Origin: Nitrospirota bacterium
GTDB taxonomy: Bacteria > Nitrospirota > Thermodesulfovibrionia > Thermodesulfovibrionales > UBA6898
NCBI GenBank assembly: GCA_016215155.1
Contig: JACRLQ010000045.1
Coordinates: 1 to 50,696 of the forward strand
Reading direction: 5' to 3'
DNA: 50,696 nucleotides
Below the pieces are notes generated by a model. It saw only the letters and a program-made list of their open reading frames with translations, ran no database searches and was not told the DNA's origin. Below, piece by piece: positions 224 to 18,299 of this stretch. Both the position numbers and the translations under genes were made by a program. Position 1 is the first letter of the stretch; each line of letters opens with the position of its first letter.

Positions 224-3100
224 TTGAGATATAGCATTAAAAAGGTCTCAACGATATCATTGCCCCTGGTTCTGGTCTTCTTCCTTTTCGGCGCCTCGAC
301 CGCACAGCCCGAAAAAAAATCGAATGATAAAATATTGTCCCGCGGCGGGCACCAGTCCCTTTCGGCAAAGACAGGCCGGGGGGAGAACGTGCGCGTAATC
401 GTCAAGGTTACTGCGCCGTTCAAGCCAATGGCTGAAACTGCCTCTCCTCAGTCCAGACAACAGATGGGCCGTATCGCATCAACTCAGGATGCCCTTCTCT
501 CCGAACTCTCCACAAAAAAAATGCCGCGCGCCCATCACAAATACAGATATGTCCCGTATATTTTTATGGAGGTCGATGGCCCGGCGTTAGAGGCGTTGAT
601 CGCATCACCGCTGGTCGAATATATCCATGAAGATACGCCAAAGAAGGCGCACCTGGGCCAGAGCGTTCCCAGAATAGGCGCTCCAACTATGTGGTCATCG
701 GGATATACCGGCTCCGGAAGGGCTGTTGCGATACTTGATACAGGAGTCGATAAAAACCACCCTTTTTTGGCCGGTGCGGTAGTGTCCGAGGCCTGTTTTT
801 CATCAACATCCACGACTTCGACCTGTGCGAATCCCGGCGATCCTTTTTATCCCTGTGAAAGCACTTCTCATCCATGGACTGTCGAATCAATATGCCCGGG
901 CGGGGTAACAAGCTCAACAGCAAATGGCTCTGCGATGCCCTATGGCGGGACCTGTCCTTTAGATCCTGATCATATTCCTCCAATACAGGAGTGCGACCAC
1001 GGGACCCATGTCTCCGGGATCATAGCCGGCAGGCAGAATGTTACCGGGTCCTCCGGTCCGGGAGGCGCTCCCGGCGCCGGCATCATCGCAATACAGGTCT
1101 TCTCGCGGTTCAACCTTGACGCCGATTGCGGCGGAGCAGGCTCTGCTCCATGTGTCATGGCATATGATTCCGATATTATCAAGGGCCTGGACAGGGTCTA
1201 TGAATTAAGCTCGACAATATCAAACATAGCTGCGGTTAATCTTAGCATTGGAGGCGGCCAGTATTTCAGCGCCGCTGAATGTGATACTAACGAAGGGCCG
1301 ACAAAAGCCGCTATCGACAATCTTAAGATGGCCGGCATAGCAACTGTGGCATCCTCAGGCAACGACGGCTATTGTGATTCCATGGAAGCTCCGGCCTGCA
1401 TATCATCTGTCGTCAGTGTAGGCGCAACTACTGACTCTGATACAGTAGCCCCCGATTCCAACAGTGCGTCTTTTTTGAGCCTGCTTGCGCCCGGTTCTTT
1501 AATCACCTCTTCAGTGCCCGGAGGCGGCTATGAGGAGAAAAGCGGGACCTCGATGGCTGCCCCACACGTTTCGGGCGCGTGGGCACTGATAAAACATGCC
1601 AGGCCTTTCGCATCCGTTGACCAGGTCCTGGCATCTCTCACCTCTACCGGACTTCCCGTCACGAATTCAAAGTGCGGACAAGTAACGAAAAAGCGCATCA
1701 TCATAAATCAGGCCTTAAACACCCTTAACTCAGGCGCGCCCCTCGTAAAGACCGAAGCGGCAGACGGCATAGGCAACGACTCCGCCACCCTTCACGGGAC
1801 GGTGAATGCAAACGGAAATAATAACACAACCGTAACGTTCGAGTACGGCACGACTCCGGCATATGGAAACACGGTATCAGCGGCTCCGGGGACGGTCTCC
1901 GGCAATGTCAATACCCCTTTAAGCGCAGCCGTTACCGGTCTGGCACCGAACACCTTTTATCACTTTCGTGTAAAGGCAACCACCCCCGGGATCGGGACCT
2001 CGTATGACAACGAGATGACCTTTTCCACCTCCGGGCCCTGCGGAAGCATCGCTGACGGGAGTTTTGAAGAAAGCCTTTCCCCTTCCCCGGCGTGGGACGA
2101 GCACCTCTCATCCTTGAGCCCATTGTGCGATGTCACGGACTGCGGCACGGACAATGATACCGCAGGCCCGAGGACCGGCAACTGGTGGGCGTGGTTTGGG
2201 GGAACGTCTGCCACTGAGTACGGCTCGCTTATTCAGGACATAATTATTCCGTCAGGCAGCGCCCCGAGACTTGAGTTCCATCTCTGGAACGGCAGGTCCA
2301 GCGGCAACGGCACAGACGTCTTCAGCGTTATGATCGACGACACGGAGATATTCTCAAGTCTTGAAGGTAATCCCTTGTTTACGGGAGGATATACACTTGC
2401 CAGCCTTGACCTGTCTCCCTTTGCGGACGATAATTCCCATACGCTTGTCCTTCAGTCATCCACGAACGCTATCAACTGGACAAACTTTTCCGTTGACGAT
2501 GTCTCGATGTCCTGTGTGACAGGGGCGGTACCAGCGGTCGCCACAGGGCCCGCCGTTTCCGTCCCCGGAACAGGCGCGACGATATACGGCTCCGTGCTTC
2601 CCTATGGGACGGACGCCTACGTGATATTCGATTATGGGACCACGACGCAATACGGGAGTACCGTCACGGCAACGCCGGGAACAGTTGGGGGAAACACACT
2701 CACGGCAGTAAGTGCGGCTCTTACGGGTCTGGACCCGGGGGTCACCTATCACTACAGGATAAGGGGGCAAAATGCAGTCGGCATCGCGTACGGCGTTGAC
2801 GGGACATTCCCTTCGACATGCCCTGCGGCGGAGGCCAAAATCGGGGGCACGAACTATACGGATATCGAGTTAGCGGTAAGCACAGCGATCGACGGCGACG
2901 AAATAAGGATGAACACCGCTCTTTTCAGCGGGCCGGGCTCCACTCCGGTAAATCCGGTCTTCGCGGGCAATGGCACTGTGACACTTAAAGGCGGCTATGA
3001 TTGCGCTTTTTCCCAAAACCCTAATTTTTCCACGATAATCGGCAAGATCACCTTCGGCGGCGGCAAGACCGTCATTATCGAAAATATTGTCATTCAGTAA
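224..3100 (+). CDS. Secreted subtilisin-like serine protease (S8) with C-terminal accessory domains
   Basis: Predicted secreted endopeptidase of family S8. TTG start at 224 is chosen because GGAGA lies 8 bases upstream and a signal peptide follows (about residues 1-27, ending ASTA|QP). Residues ~50-140 look like an inhibitor-I9-type propeptide ending VEYIHED. The catalytic triad is visible: Asp172 in ILDTGVD, His259 in DHGTHVSG, Ser443 in SGTSMAAPHVSG, with the oxyanion Asn in ASSGNDG. After about residue 515 there is a fibronectin-III-like domain, a jelly-roll-like stretch (~615-780), a second FnIII-like domain (~785-870) and a C-terminal module with a GGYDCAF motif of a kind I associate with secreted deltaproteobacterial and Nitrospirota proteins. 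At 958 residues it is far longer than a minimal subtilase (~275-residue catalytic domain). It lies upstream of the T2SS genes, so export by that system is a reasonable inference, not shown. The catalytic assignment is very secure; the accessory domains are by eye. Confidence 0.93.
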   Translation: MRYSIKKVSTISLPLVLVFFLFGASTAQPEKKSNDKILSRGGHQSLSAKTGRGENVRVIVKVTAPFKPMAETASPQSRQQMGRIASTQDALLSELSTKKMPRAHHKYRYVPYIFMEVDGPALEALIASPLVEYIHEDTPKKAHLGQSVPRIGAPTMWSSGYTGSGRAVAILDTGVDKNHPFLAGAVVSEACFSSTSTTSTCANPGDPFYPCESTSHPWTVESICPGGVTSSTANGSAMPYGGTCPLDPDHIPPIQECDHGTHVSGIIAGRQNVTGSSGPGGAPGAGIIAIQVFSRFNLDADCGGAGSAPCVMAYDSDIIKGLDRVYELSSTISNIAAVNLSIGGGQYFSAAECDTNEGPTKAAIDNLKMAGIATVASSGNDGYCDSMEAPACISSVVSVGATTDSDTVAPDSNSASFLSLLAPGSLITSSVPGGGYEEKSGTSMAAPHVSGAWALIKHARPFASVDQVLASLTSTGLPVTNSKCGQVTKKRIIINQALNTLNSGAPLVKTEAADGIGNDSATLHGTVNANGNNNTTVTFEYGTTPAYGNTVSAAPGTVSGNVNTPLSAAVTGLAPNTFYHFRVKATTPGIGTSYDNEMTFSTSGPCGSIADGSFEESLSPSPAWDEHLSSLSPLCDVTDCGTDNDTAGPRTGNWWAWFGGTSATEYGSLIQDIIIPSGSAPRLEFHLWNGRSSGNGTDVFSVMIDDTEIFSSLEGNPLFTGGYTLASLDLSPFADDNSHTLVLQSSTNAINWTNFSVDDVSMSCVTGAVPAVATGPAVSVPGTGATIYGSVLPYGTDAYVIFDYGTTTQYGSTVTATPGTVGGNTLTAVSAALTGLDPGVTYHYRIRGQNAVGIAYGVDGTFPSTCPAAEAKIGGTNYTDIELAVSTAIDGDEIRMNTALFSGPGSTPVNPVFAGNGTVTLKGGYDCAFSQNPNFSTIIGKITFGGGKTVIIENIVIQ

Positions 3101-4723: not shown

Positions 4724-5602
4724 ATGAAAATCGAAAGGATAACAGACCTTCTGGCACGGAAGAGGACAATAACCGCCCTGAATATGGCGCTCGTTCTGAT
4801 GTTGACCATCGCTGTTTTTTTCCTTATAAGGGACATCATATCCATCGCCGCGCCGGTCAGGGACAAAACCGGGAAGCCGGTCCAAAAAACCGGCGCCGTC
4901 TCAAGGAAGGTCCTTCAGGACTACGCGCCTGTTGTCGCCAATAACCCGTTCGGGTTTCAGGCCGGGGAACTGAAGCCTATCACGGGCGCATCCGGCCCTG
5001 CAGCGGCCCACGTTGACCTGATATTGATCGGGACCGTTTCAGGCAGAAAGGACTTAAGTTATGCGATCTTTGCCGACAAGACGGGACAGCAGAATGTGTT
5101 CCGGGCCGGCGAACAGGTCTTCGGCCAGGGCAGGCTTTCGAGGGTCGAAAAGACCAGGGTATTCATTACTTCAAACGGTAAAGACACGGAGATCAAACTC
5201 AAGGACATAACTGACATCAGGGAGATAAAGCCCCCTGACGCACAGGCCCCTTCTTCGGCATCCTTTGGCAGGAGAATCGGGGAATCGACCTATCAGATCG
5301 ACCAGCAGAGGGTGCAGCAGGCGATCGAAAAGCCCGATCAGATCCTCACTGACGCGCGTTTTGTGCCGAACATAATCGACGGCAGGCAGCAGGGCTTCGT
5401 GCTCCGGGAAGTAAAGGCCGGCGGCATCTATAGCAGCCTGGGCCTCCAAAACGGGGACGTCCTTCTGAAGGTCAATGACTTCAGCATCACCAACCCCGAG
5501 ACGGCGCTCCAGGCCTTCACGGCGCTGAGGGGCATAGACAGGGCGCAGCTCGACGTCATCAGAAACGGGGCGAAGATGACGATGACCTACCAGATAAGAT
5601 AG
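4724..5602 (+). CDS. gspC: T2SS inner-membrane protein GspC (HR and PDZ domains)
   Basis: GspC links the inner-membrane platform to the secretin and helps select substrates. Residues ~17-38 are a single membrane anchor, followed by a periplasmic homology region (~65-155) that includes NNPFG and ILIGTVSGR, the family's HR signature. The C-terminal ~100 residues form a PDZ domain (VLREVKAGGIYSSLGLQNGD, then LLKVNDFSI). Length 292 is normal for GspC. It is separated from gspD by an oppositely oriented YHS gene, unusual because gspC and gspD are normally adjacent. Confidence 0.93.
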   Translation: MKIERITDLLARKRTITALNMALVLMLTIAVFFLIRDIISIAAPVRDKTGKPVQKTGAVSRKVLQDYAPVVANNPFGFQAGELKPITGASGPAAAHVDLILIGTVSGRKDLSYAIFADKTGQQNVFRAGEQVFGQGRLSRVEKTRVFITSNGKDTEIKLKDITDIREIKPPDAQAPSSASFGRRIGESTYQIDQQRVQQAIEKPDQILTDARFVPNIIDGRQQGFVLREVKAGGIYSSLGLQNGDVLLKVNDFSITNPETALQAFTALRGIDRAQLDVIRNGAKMTMTYQIR

Positions 5603-6386: not shown

Positions 6387-8579
6387 ATGAAAAAACAGGT
6401 ACTTATGCAGAAAAATGCCCCGTATCGTTTTTACCTTCTAATTGTTCTGTCTTTATTTTTATTGTCGCTGTCTCCGGGTTTCTCCGTCTCCGACCTTTCA
6501 GCCGAAACAAAAAAATCGAACAACGTCACCTTCAACTTCGTCGATGTGGAACTGCCCGCGGTCACCAAGTTCATAAGCGAGATAACGGGCAAGAATTTCC
6601 TGTTCGACGAGAGGGTCAAGGGCAAGATAACGATCATCGCGCCCACGAAGCTTTCCGCCGACGATGCCTTCAATCTCTTCACCTCGGTGCTGGAGATCAA
6701 AGGGTTCACACTCGTCTCCTCGGGAGTCGACGCGTATAAAATAATCCCGTCGTCCGAGGCAAAACAGCGCGGACTTAAGATTTCCACGGAAGATATGCCG
6801 CTCAATGAAGGCTATATCGCCCGGCTTCTGGCCCTCAAACATATATCCGCCGAGGAATCGCTTAAATTCCTCCAGCCGCTTATCTCGAAAGACGGTCATA
6901 TCTCGGTGTTCGGCCCCGGGAACCTGCTTTTGGCCGTCGACTCCGGGTTAAACGTCGAAAAGATCATGTCCCTGGTGGAACTTATAGATAAGCCCTCCAC
7001 GACGGAAACGCCCGAACTTGTCCTGCTTAAGTACTCAAGTTCCGAAACCGTGGCTAAGATACTAAACGACGGGCTCGGAAGGGCAAGGACGCGCGGCGTG
7101 CCCGGCCAGCAGGCCGGCGGCGATACCGCTACGGCCTTGAGCGACCAGAGGCTCAATGCGGTCATCCTCTTTGGGGACAGGTCTGTCAGGGAGTCCATGA
7201 AGGCCCTTGTCCGCGTGATCGACACCCCTTCGCCTGAGGCCCAGGGCAGGATAAACGTCTATTTCCTAGAAAATGCCGACGCCACGGAGATCTCTAAGGT
7301 CCTTGAGGGGATGATAAAGGGCATGCAGTCTCCAAGGCCTGCCACGCCGGGAGTCCAGCAGCCGCAGGCGTCGCCGTTTGAGTCGGCTGGAGGCATAACG
7401 ATCACCCCTGACAAGGCCACGAACTCGCTGGTGATAGTCGCCTCGCCCGCAGACTATCAGAACCTCTCCCAGATACTAAGGCAGCTGGACAAACGGAGAC
7501 GCCAGGTATTCGTCGAGGCGATGATCGTTGAGGCGACGATCGATAAACTGGTGGATATCGGCGCAAAATGGCGGGCCATAGCAAAACACAAAGGCGACCC
7601 GGTTGTAATCGGCGGGGTCGGACAGATCGATTCAGCCGCCCTACAGTCTGTAGTTACAGGCCTTGCGGGCATGACCATGGGAGGCATGGGAAATTTCATG
7701 AATATCCCTCTTACCTCGATTATAAACGGTGAAGCCAAAGAGTCAAACCTGAACGTGCCGGGGTTCGCCGCGCTTTTCAGCCTGAGCGAGTTCAAGGACT
7801 CCATAAACGTGCTTTCGACCCCCCAGATCCTCACCTCGGACAATAAAGAGGCCGAGATCGTAGTCGGGGAGAACGTCCCTTTTATAGGGAAAAGGGAACG
7901 GGACCTGACGACCTCAAGCACCATCTTAAGTTCGATCGAAAGGAAGGACGTCGGCATCACGCTCAGGCTTACGCCCCAGATCACCGAGGGGAATTACGTC
8001 AAACTGGATATTTTTCAGGAGATCTCCTCTTTAAAGGAAGACTCCGAAAACATACTTACGTCCATCGGACCGAGCACCACAAAGCGCTCTACCAAGACCT
8101 CCGTTGTCGTCAAAGACAACAGCACCGTCGTAATCGGCGGGCTCATGCAGGAAAGGGACGACGTCAACGTCACGAAGGTCCCGGTGCTCGGGGACATACC
8201 TGTACTTGGGTATTTATTCAAACAAAAGAGCGTCGGCAAGAAAAAGACAAACCTGCTTGTATTTCTTACCCCTCATATAATCAGGGAAGAGGCGGTCCTC
8301 ACGGGCATAACCGCCGCCAGACAGAGAGAGTTCGCCGTTGCCCAAAACAGGTATGTCCAGGGTGAACTCATCCTTCGCTTCAGGGCCGGAACTACCGATG
8401 ATACGGCGCGCGGAATTATCACGTCGAGGGGGGCGACCGTCATCCGTCTGACGGACAAGCCGATGACCTACCGTATCAAACTCAGGGAGAGACAGTCGGT
8501 CGAAGAGGCGCTTCCTGAATTCAGCGCGGTCCCCGAGGTCGAGGGCGCCGAACCTGACTACATTACCGTCATGAAATAG
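6387..8579 (+). CDS. gspD: T2SS secretin GspD with a subtilase-propeptide-like C-terminal domain
   Basis: Outer-membrane secretin, the exit channel of the T2SS. A signal peptide (~1-35) is followed by N0 (~45-120, FNFVDVELPAVTKFISEITG), N1, N2 and N3 (to ~390) and the secretin barrel (~440-635, with VGENVPFIGKRER, GITLRLTPQI and the late VPVLGDIPVLGYLFK and LLVFLTPHIIR motifs). After about residue 658, where GspD normally ends or carries a pilotin-binding S domain, there is an ~73-residue module: GELILRFRAGTTDD, then RGATVIRL, then SVEEALPEF and VEGAEPDYITV. This is the pattern of fervidolysin/inhibitor-I9-type subtilase propeptides. The secretin call is certain; the identity of the tail is by eye. 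gspE begins 7 bases after its stop. Start may be 6387 or 6405. Confidence 0.95.
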   Translation: MKKQVLMQKNAPYRFYLLIVLSLFLLSLSPGFSVSDLSAETKKSNNVTFNFVDVELPAVTKFISEITGKNFLFDERVKGKITIIAPTKLSADDAFNLFTSVLEIKGFTLVSSGVDAYKIIPSSEAKQRGLKISTEDMPLNEGYIARLLALKHISAEESLKFLQPLISKDGHISVFGPGNLLLAVDSGLNVEKIMSLVELIDKPSTTETPELVLLKYSSSETVAKILNDGLGRARTRGVPGQQAGGDTATALSDQRLNAVILFGDRSVRESMKALVRVIDTPSPEAQGRINVYFLENADATEISKVLEGMIKGMQSPRPATPGVQQPQASPFESAGGITITPDKATNSLVIVASPADYQNLSQILRQLDKRRRQVFVEAMIVEATIDKLVDIGAKWRAIAKHKGDPVVIGGVGQIDSAALQSVVTGLAGMTMGGMGNFMNIPLTSIINGEAKESNLNVPGFAALFSLSEFKDSINVLSTPQILTSDNKEAEIVVGENVPFIGKRERDLTTSSTILSSIERKDVGITLRLTPQITEGNYVKLDIFQEISSLKEDSENILTSIGPSTTKRSTKTSVVVKDNSTVVIGGLMQERDDVNVTKVPVLGDIPVLGYLFKQKSVGKKKTNLLVFLTPHIIREEAVLTGITAARQREFAVAQNRYVQGELILRFRAGTTDDTARGIITSRGATVIRLTDKPMTYRIKLRERQSVEEALPEFSAVPEVEGAEPDYITVMK

Positions 8580-8586
8580 GCCCCCG

Positions 8587-10119
8587 ATGGAGACCCTCGA
8601 CGTCATAAAAGATGAACTGGTCGAGCACTCACTGATCAGGGAAGTCCCCCTCGCCTTCGCCAAAGGGAACCTCGTCATGCCGCTTCGGAAGGAAGACGGC
8701 CTCCTCAAGGCGGCTGTCGCCGACGAAAAAGGCCTGCTGGCGTTGAGGGAATTGTCCATGCATATGGGGCTTGCGCCGGGTCCTGTAATGACATCGTCCG
8801 GCGCGGTGCTGGACGCCATCAACAGGTTTTACGGGCAGGTCGGCTCGGCCGAAGAGGTGATGGACAACATCACGGGCGAAGACCTGACCTCGGTTGCCAC
8901 GGAGTTTGAAAGGCCGAAGGACATACTCGAACTTACCGAAGAAGCGCCGATAATCCGGCTCTTAAACGCCATCCTCCAGCAGGCCGTGAAAGAGAGGGCG
9001 AGCGATATCCATATCGAGCCTTACGAAAAGGAACTCGATATCAGGATGCGCGTAGACGGCATCCTTCGACGGGTGCTTACTCCCCCAAAGATCATACAGG
9101 ACGCCCTTATCAGCCGCATAAAAATAATGGCCAACCTCGATATCGCCGAAAAGCGTCTGCCTCAGGACGGACGGATAAGACTTTTGATCGGCGGCAGGGA
9201 CGTGGACATAAGGGTCTCGATAATACCCGCCACCCACGGAGAGAGGGCGGTCCTGAGGCTGCTCGACAGAAAACAGGGCGTGATCGGGCTCTGGGAGGTC
9301 GGGTTGAACAAAAGGGACATCGCGAGGACCGAAGAACAGTTAAACAGAACGAGCGGGATCATCCTCGTTACGGGCCCTACCGGAAGCGGCAAGACGACCA
9401 CCCTTTACGCCGCATTAAACAGGGTCCACTCCGAAGAAAAAAATATCATTACTGTAGAAGACCCTGTCGAATACCAGATGAAAGGCATCGGCCAGGTCCA
9501 GGTAAATCCGAGGATAGGGCTGACATTCGCCACAGGGCTCAGGTCCATCCTGAGACAGGACCCCGACGTTATCATGGTCGGGGAGATAAGGGACGTGGAG
9601 ACCGCGGAGATAGCCATTCAGGCCTCTCTCACCGGGCACCTTGTCCTGAGCACCCTGCATACAAACGACGCGCCTTCCGCGGTCATAAGGCTGATAGACA
9701 TGGGGGTGGAGCCCTTCCTCGTGGCCTCTTCCCTGGCAGGGGTCCTCGCCCAGAGGCTGGTAAGGGTGGTGTGTCCCCACTGCAGGGAGGCCTACGAACC
9801 CTCCGTATCCGAGAGAAAATACTTCGAAGAACTGCCCGGCGGAAAGTCGGACAATTTTCTCCTTTACAGGGGCGGGGGCTGCGATAAATGTAACGGCCAG
9901 GGATATCTCGGGAGGACCGGCATATTCGAACTTCTGGTGATGGACGGCAATTGCCGGAAGCTTATCACGGAGAGGCCCGATGCCAGGCTCCTCAGAGACG
10001 CGGCCATCGCCTCCGGCATGTCCACCCTTCGGGCCGACGGTTTTGAAAAGGCCCTCGGGGGCATCACCACGCTGGAGGAAGTCCTGCGTGTCACACGGAA
10101 GGATGCGGCTGATTTATAG
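8587..10119 (+). CDS. gspE: T2SS assembly ATPase GspE
   Basis: Cytoplasmic hexameric ATPase that powers the pseudopilus. An N-terminal MshEN-like domain (~1-110) binds GspL in the family. The core has RASDIHIEPYE, Walker A GPTGSGKT (263-270, Lys269), Asp box ITVEDPVEYQ, Walker B with MVGEIRD (Glu333) and the His box LSTLHTNDAPSA. A zinc-binding tetracysteine is complete: Cys396, Cys399, Cys432 and Cys435. Length 510 is normal. It starts 7 bases after gspD and reads on to gspF after 35 bases. Confidence 0.97.
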   Translation: METLDVIKDELVEHSLIREVPLAFAKGNLVMPLRKEDGLLKAAVADEKGLLALRELSMHMGLAPGPVMTSSGAVLDAINRFYGQVGSAEEVMDNITGEDLTSVATEFERPKDILELTEEAPIIRLLNAILQQAVKERASDIHIEPYEKELDIRMRVDGILRRVLTPPKIIQDALISRIKIMANLDIAEKRLPQDGRIRLLIGGRDVDIRVSIIPATHGERAVLRLLDRKQGVIGLWEVGLNKRDIARTEEQLNRTSGIILVTGPTGSGKTTTLYAALNRVHSEEKNIITVEDPVEYQMKGIGQVQVNPRIGLTFATGLRSILRQDPDVIMVGEIRDVETAEIAIQASLTGHLVLSTLHTNDAPSAVIRLIDMGVEPFLVASSLAGVLAQRLVRVVCPHCREAYEPSVSERKYFEELPGGKSDNFLLYRGGGCDKCNGQGYLGRTGIFELLVMDGNCRKLITERPDARLLRDAAIASGMSTLRADGFEKALGGITTLEEVLRVTRKDAADL

Positions 10120-10154: not shown

Positions 10155-11330
10155 ATGCCTGTTTTTCAATATACCGGATACAGACCTGACGGTTCTGAAG
10201 CGGCCGGGACTATTGAGGCCGAGGGGCTTCAGGACGCGCTCTCCCAGGTCAGGGCGCTGGGCATTTACCCCAGAGATGTTCACGCCCGGACCTATCGCGA
10301 AAAAAGATGGCGGCTGAAGAAAAACGAGAAGTCCTCTCTGCCGCATGTCACCAGACAGCTTTCGATACTTCTTTCCGCCGGGGTCCCGCTCCTTGACGCG
10401 CTCAGATCGCTCTCGGGGGAAAACCGCGGTTACTGGCAGGGACTGCTGACCGGCATAAAAGACAGTGTCTCGGGCGGTTCGAGTCTCTCCCGTTCGCTTG
10501 AGGCCGAAAGAGACATGTTCCCTGAATTCTATATCAACATGGTATCCGCCGGGGAGCAGAGCGGAAGGCTCAACCTGGTCCTTGAGATGCTGGCCGGCTT
10601 CCTCGAAAAGCAGGAGGCCCTGAAATCAAAGGTCCGGACCGCCATGATATACCCTTTGTTTATGATGTCCGTCGGGTTTGTCGTCCTGTCGTTTCTTTTC
10701 ACTTTTGTCGTGCCGAAAATCGTGAAGATCTTCGAAAACACTAAAAGCGCCCTTCCTTTCATCACAGTGTTGCTTATCGCGATAAGCAACTTCTTCGTCA
10801 ACTTCTGGTGGGCCATACTCATTGCGGCAGCAGCGATGTACCTCGGCGCAGGGAAACTGCGCGACAGAAACAGGATGTCCCTCGATAAAATCAAACTTGG
10901 ACTTCCGGGCGGAGTGCTGCAGAGCCTTTATCTCGGACGCTTCAGCCGCACGACCGCTTTTCTGCTCGAAGGGGGTCTTCCGCTTCTTAAAGCGCTCGAG
11001 CTGTCGTCAAAGTCCGTAGGCAACGTCGTTATTGAGCAAAAAATAAAAAATGCGGCCAAGATGGTTGCCGAGGGTGCGCGCCTGTCCCAATCTCTGGAGG
11101 GGCTGCCTTCAGTGCTTCTGCAGCTCATATCGACAGGCGAAAAAACCGGCACTCTGGCTGAGGTGCTCAACAGGGCGGCCGATTCGTATGAGGAGGATTT
11201 CGAGCGGAAGGTGCAGAAGGCCCTCTCGCTCCTTGAGCCTTCGATGATACTTGTCATGGGCCTTGTTGTGGGTTTTATCGTGCTCGCCATACTCCTTCCC
11301 ATGTTCCAGCTGAACCAACTCGTAAAATAG
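10155..11330 (+). CDS. gspF: T2SS inner-membrane platform protein GspF
   Basis: Polytopic platform protein contacting GspE. It begins with the family's MPVFQYTGY and carries two T2SSF domains (about residues 60-185 and 260-385), each a helical cytoplasmic bundle followed by a membrane segment, with three membrane spans in all (near 162-185, 205-230 and 365-390). The characteristic LLSAGVPLLDAL and FLLEGGLPLLKALE repeats mark the two halves. 391 residues is the usual size. It is followed by 66 non-coding bases before the metalloprotease gene. Confidence 0.95.
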   Translation: MPVFQYTGYRPDGSEAAGTIEAEGLQDALSQVRALGIYPRDVHARTYREKRWRLKKNEKSSLPHVTRQLSILLSAGVPLLDALRSLSGENRGYWQGLLTGIKDSVSGGSSLSRSLEAERDMFPEFYINMVSAGEQSGRLNLVLEMLAGFLEKQEALKSKVRTAMIYPLFMMSVGFVVLSFLFTFVVPKIVKIFENTKSALPFITVLLIAISNFFVNFWWAILIAAAAMYLGAGKLRDRNRMSLDKIKLGLPGGVLQSLYLGRFSRTTAFLLEGGLPLLKALELSSKSVGNVVIEQKIKNAAKMVAEGARLSQSLEGLPSVLLQLISTGEKTGTLAEVLNRAADSYEEDFERKVQKALSLLEPSMILVMGLVVGFIVLAILLPMFQLNQLVK

Positions 11331-11396: not shown

Positions 11397-13265
11397 ATGA
11401 AGAAATATTTACTTGTCATAGTCCTGCTGCTGGTCCCGATTGGTTTGTCCGGCGCGGAGTTCAGGCCGGAATCAATAAATCAGCATATCGACGAGCTTTT
11501 TGGAAGGACCGGTCTCTACAGGCAGGGCACGGATGGAGCCGACCGTACATTCTACAAGTCGGGCACCCCTGTCGTTCTCAGGGCCAAGCTGTATCCTGAC
11601 AGCGTGGCCGACGAAAACAGGTTCATCCTCAGGCGGCCGGCCGACATCAATGACACGGACTTTTACGGGGCCGGAGTAATCGTCCTCTCATATGACTCCC
11701 CCGGGGGCCATTTCAGGGTCCACTATACGGAGGACAACAGTCGCGGGGACGCGGTAACGGGATCTGACGGAAACCCGGCGACGGTCCCTCAGTTTGTGAC
11801 GGATACCGGTTCGGCCTTCGAGAACTCCTACAGCCATATTATCGGGCTTGGCTACGCCGCGCTCCCCGGGGACGGAGTCCGCGGGGGCGACAGCAGGCTC
11901 GACGTCTATATATTAAATCTCCCCGGCAGCTTCGGGTATACATCTTTTGACAGAATACCTTCTGAGGCGTACATAGTGATCGACAACGACTTCGCCTCGG
12001 CCCCTGCCAACCTCGACCCGGCGGGGGCCAAAAAGGGCGATATAAAAGTGACCGCTGCCCATGAACTCTTTCATGCCTTCCAGTTTCAAATAACTATCGA
12101 CGTGGTCAATAACGGCTGGTGGATGGAGGCCTCCTCTACCTGGATGGAAGATGAGATATATCCTGAGGTAAAGGACTACCTCAACTACATCGGACTGAGA
12201 TACGACGATATCAACGACAACGGGAAATGGAACACGGGGGAGCCGTATTACAACGTTGCGGGGACCAGGGCGGGAACGGTCCTGAGGACTGACCGATGGT
12301 TTGACAAACCGGATTCGCCGCTGGATACCTATAACGGCAGTTATGAATACGGCAGCATCATCTGGGTCAAATATCTCTCCGAGACCATGGGAGTCAACAC
12401 AATAAAGAACATCTGGGCGCGGATAGGCGGTCCCAAAACCGCGATAACAGCCATATCGGACGAACTCCCGGCAACAGGGGGGACGCTTTCGTCCGCTCTG
12501 AGAGATTTCAGGAAAAAGCTCCTGACGCTCGAGTTTGCGGACAAGACCTTCTATCCGCAGGTCAAAATGGCCGCCGCCTTCAGCGAAGTCCCTCAGGAAC
12601 TCTCGGGAAGCCTTGACCATCTCTCCGCGGTATATTATCTGTTCAAGGCCGACAATGTGAGCAAGCCCCTTACCTTCAAACTTGCCGATATGAATACAGC
12701 CGGTATCGACGCCCTGCTTATGATGAAAAAAGAAGACGGCAGTTATGACAGATTCGATATCGTGTTGAACAGCCCTGAGATAAAGCTGACCGTCCCGGGC
12801 TTCGGAGTCAACTCCATATACAGGAAAGTAGTGCTTATAATCATGAATAATTCCGCGGCGGCGGACTCTCTGCCTTATTCCGTTGAGGTGACCAATGACC
12901 CGCCGCAGCAACACCAGGGGGGCGGTGGCGGATGCTTCATAGCCACGGCGGCCTTCGGCAGCGCTCTCGCCCCTGAGGTCGAGACACTCCGCGGATTCAG
13001 GGACGATCATCTTCTCACGAATGCCTTGGGCAGACGGGTAGTCGGCCTGTACTACCGGCTCTCACCCCCTGTAGCGGAATATATCGCGGACAGTGAAGGC
13101 CTTAGGGCGCTGGCCCGTGCCGGACTCTACCCGGTCATTTATGCTGTAAAGCACCCCTATTATTTTCTGCTTCTGGCGGGCATCCCCATTTTCACGGTTC
13201 TAATTTCAGGGACGAAAAGGTCACAGATAAAACATGCACGGAGGACAAATGAAAAAAGAAAGTAG
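11397..13265 (+). CDS. MXAN_6640-like HExxH metalloprotease with CFI-box C-terminal domain
   Basis: Predicted secreted zinc metalloprotease. A signal peptide (~1-19) precedes a long catalytic region with HELFH at residues 222-226 (His222, Glu223, His226) and a following Trp/Glu-rich [12 protein letters not shown] that probably supplies the third metal ligand, as I recall for the MXAN_6640 family. Residues 508-512 are a poly-Gly linker leading into [11 protein letters not shown] (Cys513), the CFI-box C-terminal domain, which ends with a hydrophobic segment (~590-610) and a basic tail, the layout of a sorting or anchoring signal. It lies between gspF and gspG, and its end overlaps gspG by 17 bases, so it is co-expressed with the secretion machine. 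A role as T2SS cargo or as a processing protease of the system is inference. Confidence 0.85.
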
Positions 13266-13692
13266 AAAGGAAGCGGGGTTTACGCTCCTTGAGATCATAG
13301 TGGTGGTATTTATCCTTTCCCTCCTTGCGGCAATCGTCGCCCCCAAGATCATAGGCAGGACGGACGATGCCCGCATCGCGGACGCGAAGGTACAGATAAA
13401 AAACCTGGAGACCGCGCTGAAACTCTTCAGAATGGACAACGGCGCGTATCCGGACAGCGAGCAGGGGCTTGAGGCCCTCATAAGTAAGCCCTCGACGGGG
13501 AAAATACCTTCGAAGTACAGGGAGGGCGGATATCTTGAACAAAGACGGATACCCGCCGATCCCTGGGGCAACCCCTATCTTTATGTCTCGCCGGGGCTTC
13601 ACGGGGACTTCGATATCATAAGCTACGGCGCCGACGGCAAGGAAGGCGGAAGCGGCAAGGATGCGGACATTACAAGCTGGGACATGCAGTAA
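13249..13692 (+). CDS. gspG: Major pseudopilin GspG
   Basis: Main subunit of the T2SS pseudopilus. The prepilin signal [15 protein letters not shown] is cleaved after Gly10 by a prepilin peptidase (not in this window); Glu+5 is present. The C-terminal globular domain carries the family's calcium-site region ([18 protein letters not shown]) and the PADPWGNPY motif. I use the ATG at 13249 rather than 13234 because GGAGG lies just ahead of it and it gives a normal short leader. It overlaps the metalloprotease gene by 17 bases. Confidence 0.96.
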
Positions 13693-13783
13693 AGGCAGGC
13701 TGAAGGTTGAGGCGTTTAGGGACAAAGCAGGCTCAGACCGATGAAACATCCAACTTCAGAGACAGCCGTGCAGACGACAGCAA

Positions 13784-14266
13784 ATGATTGACCCTTCAGC
13801 CGCGGGTCCTGGGCCTAAAGGCCTGAACAGGATTTCGGGGTTTACCCTCCTTGAACTGATCGTCGTCCTCTTCATTATATCCCTGCTCTCGGCGGTCACA
13901 CTGCCTTCATTTTTCGGGACCGCGGCGGATTCGATAAAGACGGATGCAAAAAAAATCGCGTCTCTTGTGCGGTATCTCAATGACAGCGCTATTTATTCAA
14001 AAAAAACCTACCTGCTCCAGTTCGACCTGAAGGAAAGAGCGATCGCGTGGAGCGGCCCTGAGGGCGACAAGACGGAAAAGTTCCTGACGCTCTCGGGGCT
14101 GAATCTCCAGTCGAGGGGCACGGTAACCGACGGGCAGGTCACCGTCTTTTTCAGTCCTATGGGGCTCAGGGAAAACCTCGATATTTTCCTCAGGGAGGCG
14201 GACAAAGGCTCAAAGGTGATATTCAACTCCCTAAGCGGAAGGGTGAAGATTGAAAACGATGAGTAA
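13784..14266 (+). CDS. gspH: Minor pseudopilin GspH
   Basis: Prepilin-like protein with cleavage expected at RISG|FTLLELIVV (Gly19, Glu+5 present), a long hydrophobic helix to about residue 41 and a beta-rich C-terminal domain typical of GspH. 91 bases separate it from gspG and no clear Shine-Dalgarno precedes it. A 16-codon open frame (13741-13791, no known function) ends 8 bases inside gspH and might couple its translation. gspH itself overlaps gspI by 17 bases. Assignment as GspH rests on order (G-H-I-J-K) and size. Confidence 0.88.
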   Translation: MIDPSAAGPGPKGLNRISGFTLLELIVVLFIISLLSAVTLPSFFGTAADSIKTDAKKIASLVRYLNDSAIYSKKTYLLQFDLKERAIAWSGPEGDKTEKFLTLSGLNLQSRGTVTDGQVTVFFSPMGLRENLDIFLREADKGSKVIFNSLSGRVKIENDE

Positions 14267-14615
14267 AAAAAGACCATCACATAGCGGCGGGTTTACCCTC
14301 CTTGAGATCATGGTTTCCCTGGCCATAATCGGAGGGCTGCTGGTCACCCTTATATATTCACTTAACTACAACCTCGGCATAGCGGAAAGACATGAGTTCA
14401 TAACCATCGGGTCCATGCTCGCCAAAAGCAAACTTACCGAACTTGAAACAAACCCCGCCAGCGCAAAAGGGAATTTCCCCGAGCCTTACGCCTCATATGA
14501 ATTTTCGGCCGAGGTAAAACAGTATCCCCTGCCCGGAATTTCAGAGGTCTCAGTCACGGTAAGCAGGGGCAAGGACGAGGTAAAGTTCAGCGACCTGATC
14601 GGCTCAAAAAAATGA
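14250..14615 (+). CDS. gspI: Minor pseudopilin GspI
   Basis: Pseudopilin tip component. Cleavage is expected at HSGG|FTLLEIMVSLAI with Glu+5; the hydrophobic helix runs to about residue 37. The region MLAKSKLTELE is typical of GspI. The start is TTG 14250 or ATG 14259; both lie within the end of gspH. It overlaps gspJ by 4 bases (ATGA). Confidence 0.9.
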   Translation: MKTMSKKRPSHSGGFTLLEIMVSLAIIGGLLVTLIYSLNYNLGIAERHEFITIGSMLAKSKLTELETNPASAKGNFPEPYASYEFSAEVKQYPLPGISEVSVTVSRGKDEVKFSDLIGSKK

Positions 14616-15226
14616 ACGGGCGCATTGGCTGCAGTAAAGGGTTTACACTGATAGAGCTTCTGATTTCGATGGTCATGCTTAGCATCATACTGGGGGCGCT
14701 CTACAGCACTTTTTTTCTTTCCCACAGGGCCGTCACCGGGATGGATGAGTCGCTTCTCAAGCTTCAGGAGATGCGGATGTTCCTCGATACGATGAGCAGG
14801 GAACTGGATTCGTTCTCCGGCGCGGAGAATAAAAATTCCGTATTTAAGATCGAAGACAGGGACATATACGGCAAGCATGCCTCCAGGATAAAGTTCACGT
14901 CGTTTTCGCCGGGCAGACCGGGGCTGTCGTTAATCACATACTATATCGAGGACCGGTCCGGAAGCCGCACACTCTTCAAAAAGACCGCCGGCGCCTACGC
15001 CAGGGATGATGATGAAAAAAACGATACCAATACCGCCGGGATGATCGAAGGGGTCGAGGCCTTCACTGTTGAGGTAATGAGCGGCAAAAAATGGATAAAG
15101 ACATGGGACACGGCAGAGACAAAAAATACGCCTCAGGAGATCAGGGTGACGATATCCGCCATGATAAAGGACAGGCCGGTCAGCATGTATGAAACAATAA
15201 GGCCGAGGATAGGAAAGCCGCTATGA
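14612..15226 (+). CDS. gspJ: Minor pseudopilin GspJ
   Basis: Tip pseudopilin with signal MNGRIGCSKG|FTLIELLIS (Gly10, Glu+5). After the helix the KLQEMRMFLDTMSRELDSF segment and the long beta-rich domain with RIKFTSF and ITYYIE are as expected of GspJ. Length 204 is usual. It begins in an ATGA overlap with gspI and ends in an ATGA overlap with gspK, indicating translational coupling. Confidence 0.93.
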   Translation: MNGRIGCSKGFTLIELLISMVMLSIILGALYSTFFLSHRAVTGMDESLLKLQEMRMFLDTMSRELDSFSGAENKNSVFKIEDRDIYGKHASRIKFTSFSPGRPGLSLITYYIEDRSGSRTLFKKTAGAYARDDDEKNDTNTAGMIEGVEAFTVEVMSGKKWIKTWDTAETKNTPQEIRVTISAMIKDRPVSMYETIRPRIGKPL

Positions 15227-16095
15227 GGCATATGAACAATCGCGGAATGGCCCTTATATTGACGCTGATGGTGGTCGCCATAATAACTGCCATGGTGGTC
15301 GAATTCGCCTACGGCGTCTATGTAAGCACAAGCGCCCTCAATAACTGGCAGACGTCGCAGAGGCTCTCCCTTCTGGCACGGTCGACCACTCAACTCGGGG
15401 CGATGCTGATTAAAGAGAAGTTGCGGCAGCCCTATACATATCCCGGGGTCTTTGAAACATCACAGAAGGCGCCTGTCGGTGAGATCGAAAGCACCATAAC
15501 CCTGAGGATAGAAGATGAAAATTCAAAGTTCAATCTCAATACACTTAAGATTAGCGGCACATCGTCTTCTGACTCAGACCCACATGATGATTTTGTAAAA
15601 CTCCTTGATTATCTTCAAATTAACGCAGACATAGCGGACAGAATATGTTACTGGATTGATTCGACGACATCCCATAGACCTACAGATGCAAAGAGTGAGA
15701 CGAAGAACTCTCAGCTCGACAGCCTCGATGAACTGCTTTTGATCCCCGGCATCGACAGGGGTAGTTATGAGAAGCTTCTACCCTATGTTACAATATACGG
15801 GAACAATTATATCAATATCAATGGGGCTGGAATGCCCGTTTTATTGATGATTCCCAAAATAACCAGGGAAAATGCAGAGAAAATAGTTAGGCAGAGGGAG
15901 ATCATGCCGTTTGACGACAAAAGTAATACACTAGCTAACCTGATAGGCGTCCATCTCAGTGGCACCATTACCAAAGGAACCGCCTTCCACATTAGTGCCG
16001 TTGCCTCCTCGGGAAATGTGACGAGGGTCATAGATACTATTATCTATACGGGAGATGGATCTTCCAGAAAAGTTTTATATTGGAAAGAATTTTAG
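15223..16095 (+). CDS. gspK: Minor pseudopilin GspK
   Basis: Largest tip pseudopilin, which caps the I-J-K complex. The signal is MRHMNNRG|MALILTLMVV; Leu rather than Glu stands at +5, which is normal for GspK. The rest has the expected ENSKFNLN segment, two helical SAM-like parts (DELLLIPGID) and a C-terminal HISAVA region. From about 15535 to the end the base composition falls to roughly 35-55% GC per 60-base line (most near 40%) against 50-58% around it, with different codon choice, so the C-terminal two thirds may have a different history. It stops 3 bases before gspL. Confidence 0.93.
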   Translation: MRHMNNRGMALILTLMVVAIITAMVVEFAYGVYVSTSALNNWQTSQRLSLLARSTTQLGAMLIKEKLRQPYTYPGVFETSQKAPVGEIESTITLRIEDENSKFNLNTLKISGTSSSDSDPHDDFVKLLDYLQINADIADRICYWIDSTTSHRPTDAKSETKNSQLDSLDELLLIPGIDRGSYEKLLPYVTIYGNNYININGAGMPVLLMIPKITRENAEKIVRQREIMPFDDKSNTLANLIGVHLSGTITKGTAFHISAVASSGNVTRVIDTIIYTGDGSSRKVLYWKEF

Positions 16096-16098
16096 TCA

Positions 16099-16857
16099 AT
16101 GGCCGCCATAACCGTATTCGATCTCAAAACTGATGGTCTTTCGATTTATGGTCTCGACAAAAAAAAAGGGACCGTCCTGTCCCGTGAAAATATAGCCCTC
16201 AGTCCCGGAGACGTTTTCCCCCGTGACATAAAAAAGTCTTTTGGTTCCAGTGACGACTGCTATGTCAGTCTGCCCGCATCTCTTCTTAATTTCAGGATAC
16301 TTGAACTGCCGTTTCCGGACCCCAAAAAAATACGCGATCTCCTTCCCTATGAACTCGACGGCCTGGTGTTAAACGGATCGGCGTCGATAGTCTTCGATGC
16401 CTTCGTTATAGGCGGGGAGGCGGGCGCGTATAAAGTCCTCGTGGCATATCTGCCGAAATCGGCGCTCAGGGATATTTTAACGAGACTTAAGGCCATAGAT
16501 ATCGACCCGAAGGCGGTCCTCTCTGTTGAACTTGCTCACGCTGTTACGCTTGGGTCTGAAAGAGAGGTTGCGGACTTCCTCCTTGGGTCTTCTTTGCTGT
16601 CCGAGGATGAACGGGCAAAAACATGCGCCAAGCAGATCAAGTCCCCCTCCTTCGACTTCAGGCGGGACGAGTTTGCCTTTACGGCCGACACCGCAAAAAA
16701 AGACAAGGCGCTTAAGACCGCCGCGGCGCTTTTAATGCTGCTTGTCCTCGTAGTGCTTGCCGAAGGCCTCTTTCTCGGGAGTCTCCGCCCTCCGGACTCT
16801 TATGGACCTCACGAAGATCAGCAGGCCGGGCCTGTCACTGACCGAGGTGACCGTTGA
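16099..16857 (+). CDS. gspL: GspL, N-terminal part (gene frameshifted)
   Basis: GspL couples the ATPase GspE to the inner-membrane complex. Residues 1-~200 form the actin-like cytoplasmic domain (ITVFDLKTDGLSIYGL, LPASLLNFRILELPF, and RRDEFAFTAD just before the membrane) and ~210-227 are the single membrane helix. Straight after it the frame runs into an unrelated tail that begins LRPPDSYGPHED. The proper periplasmic domain continues in the +1 frame from about 16785 (SALRTLMDL). Besides the frame change, the linker of roughly 50-60 residues usual in this family between the membrane helix and the ferredoxin-like domain is missing. An internal deletion leaving a frameshift, an assembly error, or a +1 ribosomal shift are all possible. 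Confidence 0.82.
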   Translation: MAAITVFDLKTDGLSIYGLDKKKGTVLSRENIALSPGDVFPRDIKKSFGSSDDCYVSLPASLLNFRILELPFPDPKKIRDLLPYELDGLVLNGSASIVFDAFVIGGEAGAYKVLVAYLPKSALRDILTRLKAIDIDPKAVLSVELAHAVTLGSEREVADFLLGSSLLSEDERAKTCAKQIKSPSFDFRRDEFAFTADTAKKDKALKTAAALLMLLVLVVLAEGLFLGSLRPPDSYGPHEDQQAGPVTDRGDR

Positions 16858-17023
16858 AAGGGACCTCGTGCTTATAAAAGGCGAATGCCCGTCCATGACC
16901 GACGTACAGAGGACCAAGACCGAACTCGAACCCGTATTTGGCGAGGTCAATATATCAGATACCAGGCCGTCATCCCAGGGCCGCACGCAATTTACCATCA
17001 GGGCGAAGGTCAAAAAGGGATGA
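16757..17023 (+). pseudogene. gspL: GspL, C-terminal periplasmic domain in the +1 frame
   Basis: Open frame encoding a ferredoxin-like domain: SALRTLMDL helix, LTEVTVERDLVLIKGE strands, SMTDVQRTKTELEP helix and a final strand before KKG. This matches the C-terminal domain of GspL. The frame has only a TTG (16757) or ATG (16802) to start from and no signal or membrane segment, so alone it could not reach the periplasm. Its stop overlaps the gspM start as ATGA, exactly as an intact gspL would, which suggests the domain was translated as part of GspL until recently or still is. Confidence 0.75.
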
Positions 17024-17520
17024 CTATACCGTACGACAAAAAGTTCTATGCGGTTGCGGCGGCCATTATCGGTGTCATTGCCTGCATCGCGATGGCGATT
17101 ACGGCGCGCTCACTCAGGACCGAAAACGCCGGTCTCAAGGCCCGTCAGACCGAGCTTATGGCCTTGAAGGACGAAGCCTTAAAGCTCAGGGAGGCAGTCG
17201 GATCAGTCACGGAGAAAAAGTCCGTCACCCGGGTCGAAGGAGTCGTGCAGGCGGCGGATGAGATCTTCAAGTCGCTCGGTATAAGCCAGAAGGTCAGATC
17301 CGTGAAGCCTTCCGGCTCCGGTGAAAGACAATACGGCATTGAAGAAGAGGCGGAGGTCCAGCTCGAAAAACTGACCATGAACGAGTTGGTCAACCTGTTA
17401 TACAGGGTCGAAAACGCCCCTATGGTCCTTACCTCAAAAAAGGCGTCAATGAAGACGGCCTTCGATAACCCAACTTTGCTCAACGTAACGATGGTGATCA
17501 CCCTCATCAAACCAAAGTGA
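17020..17520 (+). CDS. gspM: T2SS inner-membrane protein GspM
   Basis: GspM pairs with GspL in the inner membrane. The 166-residue protein has a short cytoplasmic N-terminus, one membrane helix (~9-27), a coiled-coil stretch (~30-65) and a ferredoxin-like periplasmic domain (to 166) containing KLTMNELVNLLYRVENA, a family signature. ATG 17020 overlaps the gspL-C stop as ATGA; a longer in-frame reading from 16885 only shadows gspL. It overlaps gspN by 4 bases. Confidence 0.9.
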   Translation: MTIPYDKKFYAVAAAIIGVIACIAMAITARSLRTENAGLKARQTELMALKDEALKLREAVGSVTEKKSVTRVEGVVQAADEIFKSLGISQKVRSVKPSGSGERQYGIEEEAEVQLEKLTMNELVNLLYRVENAPMVLTSKKASMKTAFDNPTLLNVTMVITLIKPK

Positions 17521-18299
17521 AATATCTTCTTGCCGCCTGCCTCTTCTTTTTTGTGCTGGTCCTCTGCATATGGAACATTTTGGTCCCCCTTGAGAGGATC
17601 CCCGACCTCGTTGATCGCTCTTTGGAAGGTAGTTCCATAAAGGCTGAATTTGACGGGCTGAAAAAAGGCTTTTTTTATAACTTCACCGCCGAAAAAATAA
17701 GGTTTAAAAAAAATGAGACGACACTGCTTGTTGTCGAAAATATATCAGGCAGGATCGAACTGCTCCGGCTCCTGGGCCTCAGGCTTCCCGTCAATGTCAG
17801 GGGAGACTTTGGCGGAGGGTCGATGACGGCCCGGGTTGACCTGATTGGAAGCGACCGCGGCATGGCCCTGAGTGTCAGCAATGCGTCTACCGACCTGATC
17901 CCCCTTTTTTCTTTATCGGGAATAAAGGGAAGAGGACTGTTATCAGGAGAACTGCTCCTTAAAAACAATGCGGGTGATGCAAGGTTCGATATATCCGACG
18001 CAAAGTTCACCTCCGCGACATTCGGCGGCATCCCGGTCCCCCTCGGTATCTTCCGGAGCGCCAGGGCGGCGCTGAGTATCGACGGCAGGACGGTGAAGGT
18101 CGTCTCTTTTTCGATGGAGGGGGAAGATATTTACGCAAGGGTCAAAGGCGACATCACCGGCGGCAGGCCGGACCTTTCTCTTGAACTCATGCCTGAAAAG
18201 ACCTTTACGGAAAAAAATCCGGCATTTATGCTCCTCGAAAAATACAGGGTCTCACCGGGGTATTATTCGGTGCCGCTGACTATTGGGCCTGACTTCTGA
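17517..18299 (+). CDS. gspN: T2SS protein GspN
   Basis: Bitopic inner-membrane protein with one N-terminal helix (~3-24) and a periplasmic beta-rich domain. GspN is an accessory T2SS component of unclear role. The DLVDRSLEGSSIKAEFDGLK and FFYNFTAEKI segments and the repeated beta pattern (INGRVKV-like stretches) fit the family, as does the length of 260. GTG start at 17517 overlaps the gspM stop (GTGA). Position after gspM is the classic one. Confidence 0.85.
   Translation: MKYLLAACLFFFVLVLCIWNILVPLERIPDLVDRSLEGSSIKAEFDGLKKGFFYNFTAEKIRFKKNETTLLVVENISGRIELLRLLGLRLPVNVRGDFGGGSMTARVDLIGSDRGMALSVSNASTDLIPLFSLSGIKGRGLLSGELLLKNNAGDARFDISDAKFTSATFGGIPVPLGIFRSARAALSIDGRTVKVVSFSMEGEDIYARVKGDITGGRPDLSLELMPEKTFTEKNPAFMLLEKYRVSPGYYSVPLTIGPDF

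Follow-up and report, generated by a model that had tools for sequence, protein, structure and literature searches.

T2SS secretins such as PulD, EpsD and ExeD (GspD; TIGR02517) carry N0-N3 and secretin domains and an S-domain-type helix after the barrel, and finish in a short, often disordered or pilotin-binding end. In pilotin-dependent S-domains, helix alpha-11 is followed by a pilotin-binding helix, alpha-12, with an Ala-Phe motif (PMC6532946). Solved secretin structures show the S-domain helix packed against the adjacent monomer, after which the chain continues into the pilotin-binding segment; the pilotin lies on the outside of the ring, and the upper rim alone enters the membrane (PMC6532946, PMC6882859). 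The prodomains of fervidolysin and subtilisin (PF22148; 1r6v, 1spb, 1scj) stand at the N-terminus of a protease, and the same fold acts in trans in POIA1 (1v5i) and Aeromonas ORF2 (3wqb), apart from the protease chain.

The window (the whole 50,696-nucleotide stretch of Nitrospirota DNA that was analysed) encodes a GspD with the same domains, operon context and S-domain-type helix as PulD, EpsD and ExeD, but with a folded PF22148 domain at its end. This tail has its sequence family, its fold and the GELLVKFK and EPNY motifs in common with the fervidolysin and subtilisin prodomains; unlike them, it is C-terminal in a secretin and has no catalytic domain, and it departs from cis prodomains at Tyr695, at Glu717 and in its phi-[KR]-phi-Q terminal strand. 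Whereas POIA1 and ORF2 are separate proteins, the tail is a covalent part of a secretion channel, and any inhibition by it is only putative. It occupies the same place in the chain, just past the S-domain helix, as the segment that works with the pilotins PulS and AspS/EpsS; in those systems, however, a short helix is bound by a lipoprotein, whereas the window GspD has a folded domain in cis.

The window secretin and its C-terminal domain

The window gspD lies in a T2SS operon, where gspC was identified by profile and gspE, gspF, gspG and others from their translations. The features, all on the forward strand, are as follows.

224..3100, +: S8 peptidase with fn3-type repeats, possible T2SS cargo (PF00082, 114 bits, residues 163-476)
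4724..5602, +: gspC with a PDZ-like C-terminus (PF11356 T2SSC, 47.2 bits)
6387..8579, +: gspD, T2SS secretin, 730 aa (TIGR02517, PF00263, PF03958, PF21305)
8289..8342, +: S-domain-type helix, residues 635-652, between barrel and tail (full-length AlphaFold model, moderate confidence)
8319..8558, +: Fervidolysin_NPro-like match (PF22148), residues 645-724 (43.8 bits; fold by AlphaFold and VIA-align)
8550..8576, +: terminal strand EPDY-ITVMK (class consensus EPNY-x-phi-[KR]-phi-Q)
8587..10119, +: gspE-type ATPase (translation reading, GPTGSGKTTT motif)
10155..11330, +: gspF-like gene (translation reading)
11397..13265, +: DUF6055 protein with a C-terminal box of 10 residues, letters not shown (PF19527, 38.2 bits; translation)
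13234..18299, +: gspG-like and further pseudopilin and platform genes, same operon as gspD (translation reading)

The TIGR02517 profile (NCBIfam) matches residues 49-641 of the window GspD at 526.5 bits, against a curated cutoff of 351.35, and Pfam finds N0, three Secretin_N stretches and Secretin. Judged by these profiles, the protein is an ordinary T2SS secretin up to its tail. The C-terminus of GspC matches PF00595 (PDZ) at 21.3 bits, slightly below the cutoff of 23.2. The S8 gene ends about 3.3 kb upstream of gspD, not 6 kb away as originally described; its N-terminal region is matched by no Pfam propeptide model and looks prodomain-like by eye. The DUF6055 gene lies between gspF and gspG, which is the slot of CFI-box S8 peptidases in genomes G041 and G052. 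Its product is a possible T2SS cargo, and its C-terminal box may be a sorting signal for such cargo.

The tail is a Fervidolysin_NPro-like (PF22148) propeptide domain, which confirms the original prediction of a subtilase-propeptide-like domain at 8358-8576, coordinates included. PF22148 matches the full-length protein with an E-value of 3.4e-11 (gathering cutoff 21 bits) and the excised tail with 2.5e-12 (47.4 bits), scores that place the match far above chance level. All 34 aligned orthologue tails are matched at E<=0.01, the best at 2.3e-22. The profile hit is to PF22148 rather than to a standard pilotin-binding S tail, as anticipated. A search of PDB sequences with the single window tail gave no match; with the 34-row tail profile, fervidolysin 1r6v came out best (E 2.7e-4).

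The structural models agree with this assignment. AlphaFold on the 34 orthologous tails gives the beta-alpha-beta-beta-alpha-beta order of the subtilase-prodomain fold, the outcome that had been proposed as a check. In particular, the model contains a low-confidence helix (10-19) followed by E25-34, H40-49, E53-58, E63-67, H74-82 and E87-94; its pLDDT is about 85-91 across most of the domain and below 50 in the last three residues. In the window GspD, the structured domain spans residues 656-725 plus the short terminal strand. The top ranks in VIA-align are the prodomains of prosubtilisin, PC1/3, BPN', subtilisin E and PCSK9 (Z from 9.8 to 8.5, rmsd 1.6-2.6, 68-77 residues); fervidolysin follows at Z 7.7, and unrelated ferredoxin-like folds appear from Z of about 8.3. 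Foldseek found no match in the PDB at E<=0.001, and the top of its list was mostly subtilase prodomains. A cis-acting propeptide precedes its own protease; here, the chain is a secretin that ends after the tail and has no S8 catalytic domain.

In the full-length AlphaFold model (pTM 0.34, moderate confidence), the tail begins about three residues after the helix at 635-652, and the chain passes from this helix directly into the propeptide fold. Since the S-domain helix lies outside the ring in solved secretins, the expected place of the tail is outside the secretin ring, in the periplasm, and not in the lumen. In one sublineage, a linker and then a SPOR domain come after the tail. SPOR domains bind peptidoglycan, so this arrangement points to a periplasmic GspD C-terminus. 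A long linker with a SPOR-like domain follows the tail in L060, L064, L065, L073, L082, L085, L090, L100, L105 and L110; PF05036 matches L110 at 22.2 bits (cutoff 21) and L065 at 18.2 bits, below cutoff.

Distribution, selection and motifs of the tail

The survey of GspD C-termini called for by the original prediction covered Nitrospirota and Desulfobacterota. Among 395 Nitrospirota genomes scanned, full-length tail-GspD matches occur in about 98 members of the host's class, Thermodesulfovibrionia, and the tail is present in GspD orthologues of most families (60 relatives). GspDs from outside this class, among the matches listed, stop at model positions 132-140 and are tail-less. A scan of genome contigs with the single window tail as query gave no match; with an 11-row tail profile, it returned 80 loci, most of whose carriers are named Thermodesulfovibrionales, Thermodesulfovibrionia or other Nitrospirota. 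Within the class, genus g5, genome G277 and families f14 and f20 are tail-less. The g5 GspDs have a short C-terminal tail, ...EPDVKVKDQ, which may be a remnant of the propeptide tail. Only 2 of the 345 sampled Desulfobacterota genomes are carriers (G404, labelled Syntrophaceae UBA2188, and G639), making transfer or misbinned contigs possible there. No paper describing a secretin with such a tail was found in the open-access literature, in line with what had been supposed; the class-wide architecture is real and apparently undescribed.

The tail is under purifying selection, with a constraint weaker than that on the barrel. Across 15 pairs (Nei-Gojobori, pairwise), its dN/dS is 0.06-0.30, a range raised by some pairs with C-terminal extensions, versus 0.00-0.13 for the secretin part; in genera without S8 peptidases, it is 0.15-0.21. 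That the tail might be a neutral, functionless leftover of a fusion is therefore highly improbable: its evolution is faster than that of the barrel and some lineages are tail-less, but the selection signal, with dN/dS well below 1, contradicts neutrality, as do about 98 carrier genomes from independent assemblies and the retention of the fold motifs.

These motifs carry several features of their own. EPNY is conserved in GspD tails to the same degree as in S8 prodomains. The terminal strand x-phi-[KR]-phi-Q is specific to GspD; it stands in place of the cis prodomain pattern and is kept even where the chain goes on, as would be expected of a packing strand. At GspD position 695, the tails and the four stand-alone prodomain ORFs described below tend to Tyr or Phe, and at 717 to Glu; the matching positions of cis prodomains hold Glu, Gln or His and Asp or Asn, respectively. 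In 26 of 78 tails, the chain stops exactly five residues past EPxY, and about half stop within ten; in VIA-align, the C-terminal residue of GspD falls opposite the final residue of the cleaved BPN' prosegment, at a model end whose pLDDT is below 50.

The Glu of EPNY, which we take to be the helix-capping Glu of subtilisin propeptides, is replaced by Lys, Arg, Thr or Ser in seven genomes that form one clade of family f4 (SH-aLRT 97). This clade comprises the S8-less genera g39 and g58 plus g13, where S8 and gspD lie on different contigs. An association between loss of this Glu and absence of S8 (Fisher p 0.002) was rejected, as the change is a single event on the GspD tree; moreover, the underlying table scored G366 and G259 as Glu-less, and both of their insertion-bearing tails carry the Glu. 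The insertion in these tails (L205, L206) is a two-cysteine segment of about 30 residues between the third strand and the second helix.

S8 peptidases and stand-alone prodomains

The tail is not restricted to genomes with an S8 partner. At E<=0.01, there is no S8 match in 19 of the 98 tail-bearing genomes, eleven of which are at least 95% complete, and eight S8-poor genomes yielded no domain of this type other than the GspD tail. S8 status requires 13 changes on the aligned GspD tree, and the S8-less state of tail-bearing genomes corresponds to about 12 independent losses. S8 peptidases are present in 79 of 98 tail-bearing genomes, in 5 of 7 tail-less genomes with a GspD match, and in 6 of 19 class members without one; thus, their presence tracks the T2SS and not the tail. 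The S8-less genomes keep a constrained tail, which indicates that its main function does not require S8 and that its role at the gate is probably not only S8 handling. Where S8 peptidases are present, the tail may still make an S8-related contribution.

S8 genes near tail-bearing gspD are nonetheless more frequent than expected. They are found within or close to the T2SS cluster in G000, G036, G041, G052, G057, G180, G196, G210, G244, G289, G295, G329, G340 and G364, against one or two cases expected by a rough estimate (from about two S8 genes in a genome of 2-3 Mb). Most S8 peptidases examined, including most of the T2SS-linked ones, have their own PF22148-type cis prodomain. In G052, a single ORF (L133:14031-16823) encodes a prodomain, S8, fn3 and a CFI-box, followed by N_methyl and T2SSG (GspG), as if an exoprotease were fused to the major pseudopilin; a Met just before the pilin part makes it possible that a stop codon is missing from the assembly. 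Several T2SS-linked S8 peptidases in L128-L131 have a lipobox-like start and end in GGGGC[SA]IG, a hydrophobic stretch and an Arg tail, resembling MYXO-CTERM-type sorting signals.

In a propeptide tree of 126 domains, a branch with SH-aLRT 95 separates all 47 cis S8 prodomains from the GspD tails, which lie together with four short stand-alone prodomain ORFs, each directly upstream of, or overlapping, an S8 gene.

L116:519-917: stand-alone prodomain ORF, lipobox-like N-terminus by eye
L118:5039-5887: stand-alone prodomain ORF, lipobox-like N-terminus by eye
L120:5650-6246: stand-alone prodomain ORF
L122:5577-6086: stand-alone prodomain ORF, lipobox-like N-terminus by eye

Two of the four stop five residues past EPNY. 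The ORFs in L116, L118 and L122 are possible intermolecular chaperones or inhibitors; those in L120 and L122 may reflect frameshifts, since they overlap or adjoin S8 reading frames. Further candidates of 80 aa, in L046 and L081 (G006), proved to be gspD pieces at contig edges. A secreted stand-alone propeptide ORF ending in EPDYNVKIQK (L184:1306-1737) also occurs in G008, of a genus with tail-less GspD, and the S8 gene that follows it after about 50 bp encodes a prodomain of its own. Overall, the tree suggests that the tail may have arisen when gspD acquired a trans-type prodomain gene that neighboured a secreted subtilase; the alignment of 98 columns leaves most forks poorly separated, so the evidence on origin is only suggestive.

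Possible functions of the tail

Our preferred reading, to which we give an even chance of being right, is that the tail is an S8-independent rim, assembly or anchoring module. A PF22148 propeptide fold would have been fused to the GspD C-terminus early in Thermodesulfovibrionia and retained by purifying selection. It would occupy the place of the flexible pilotin-binding segment of other GspDs, right after the S-domain helix, and about 15 copies, as judged from solved secretins, would surround the ring on its periplasmic outer side, beneath the outer membrane. As a rim module, it could aid secretin assembly, arrival at the outer membrane or anchoring, doing in cis the work of pilotins or accessory proteins elsewhere. 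The identity of the domain, its fold, its place in the chain, its conservation, the selection on it and its retention in S8-less genomes are demonstrated; its location on the ring and its pilotin-like or anchoring role we infer. Two observations count against it, namely the conservation of EPNY at the level of S8 prodomains and the enrichment of S8 genes near gspD.

These same observations feed the main rival, which we consider doubtful: a tethered, trans-acting propeptide that serves as periplasmic foldase or inhibitor of S8 exoproteases, which would shield the secretin and hold the cargo inactive until it is exported. Such logic resembles that of membrane-anchored lipase foldases and of the ORF2 chaperone of an Aeromonas serine protease. 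Structurally, the tail matches S8 prodomains best, and the structures of some of these include the bound protease; the tails group with stand-alone ORFs adjoining S8 genes, some S8 genes lie within T2SS clusters, and EPNY is retained. The alignment of the GspD C-terminus with the end of the cleaved BPN' prosegment, and the tails that stop five residues past EPxY, also fit. Within family f4, all three genomes with S8 beside gspD retain the Glu, and the clade that lost it contains S8-less genera, but that loss is a single event and 13 other S8-less genomes retain the residue. Moreover, a trans-acting propeptide should have an S8 partner in every tail-bearing genome, and 19 of 98 have none; S8 occurs in 5 of 7 tail-less T2SS-positive genomes, most T2SS-linked S8 peptidases already have a cis prodomain, and the tail is expected outside the lumen. 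The fuller proposal, in which about 15 propeptide domains per gate, drawn from stand-alone prodomain genes beside subtilases, would capture S8 exoproteases in the periplasm, fold or inhibit them until export and shield the machine, seems to us rather improbable. The GELLVKFK sheet-face pattern and EPNY are conserved in tails even without S8, and would also be compatible with the old propeptide surface docking or sorting putative non-S8 partners, for example GspC, other cargo or peptidoglycan-associated proteins; we regard this as unlikely. Among the three roles originally suggested, a recruited structural module fits best, whereas docking, chaperoning or inhibition of S8 peptidases at the gate has only partial support.

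The tail is a class-wide, selected and folded domain, added to a T2SS secretin where pilotins normally act, and an example of a protease propeptide fold that is retained without its protease. It provides a handle on secretin assembly in bacteria beyond the Pseudomonadota models, and a testable case for the question of whether proteases can be chaperoned or restrained by the channel that exports them.
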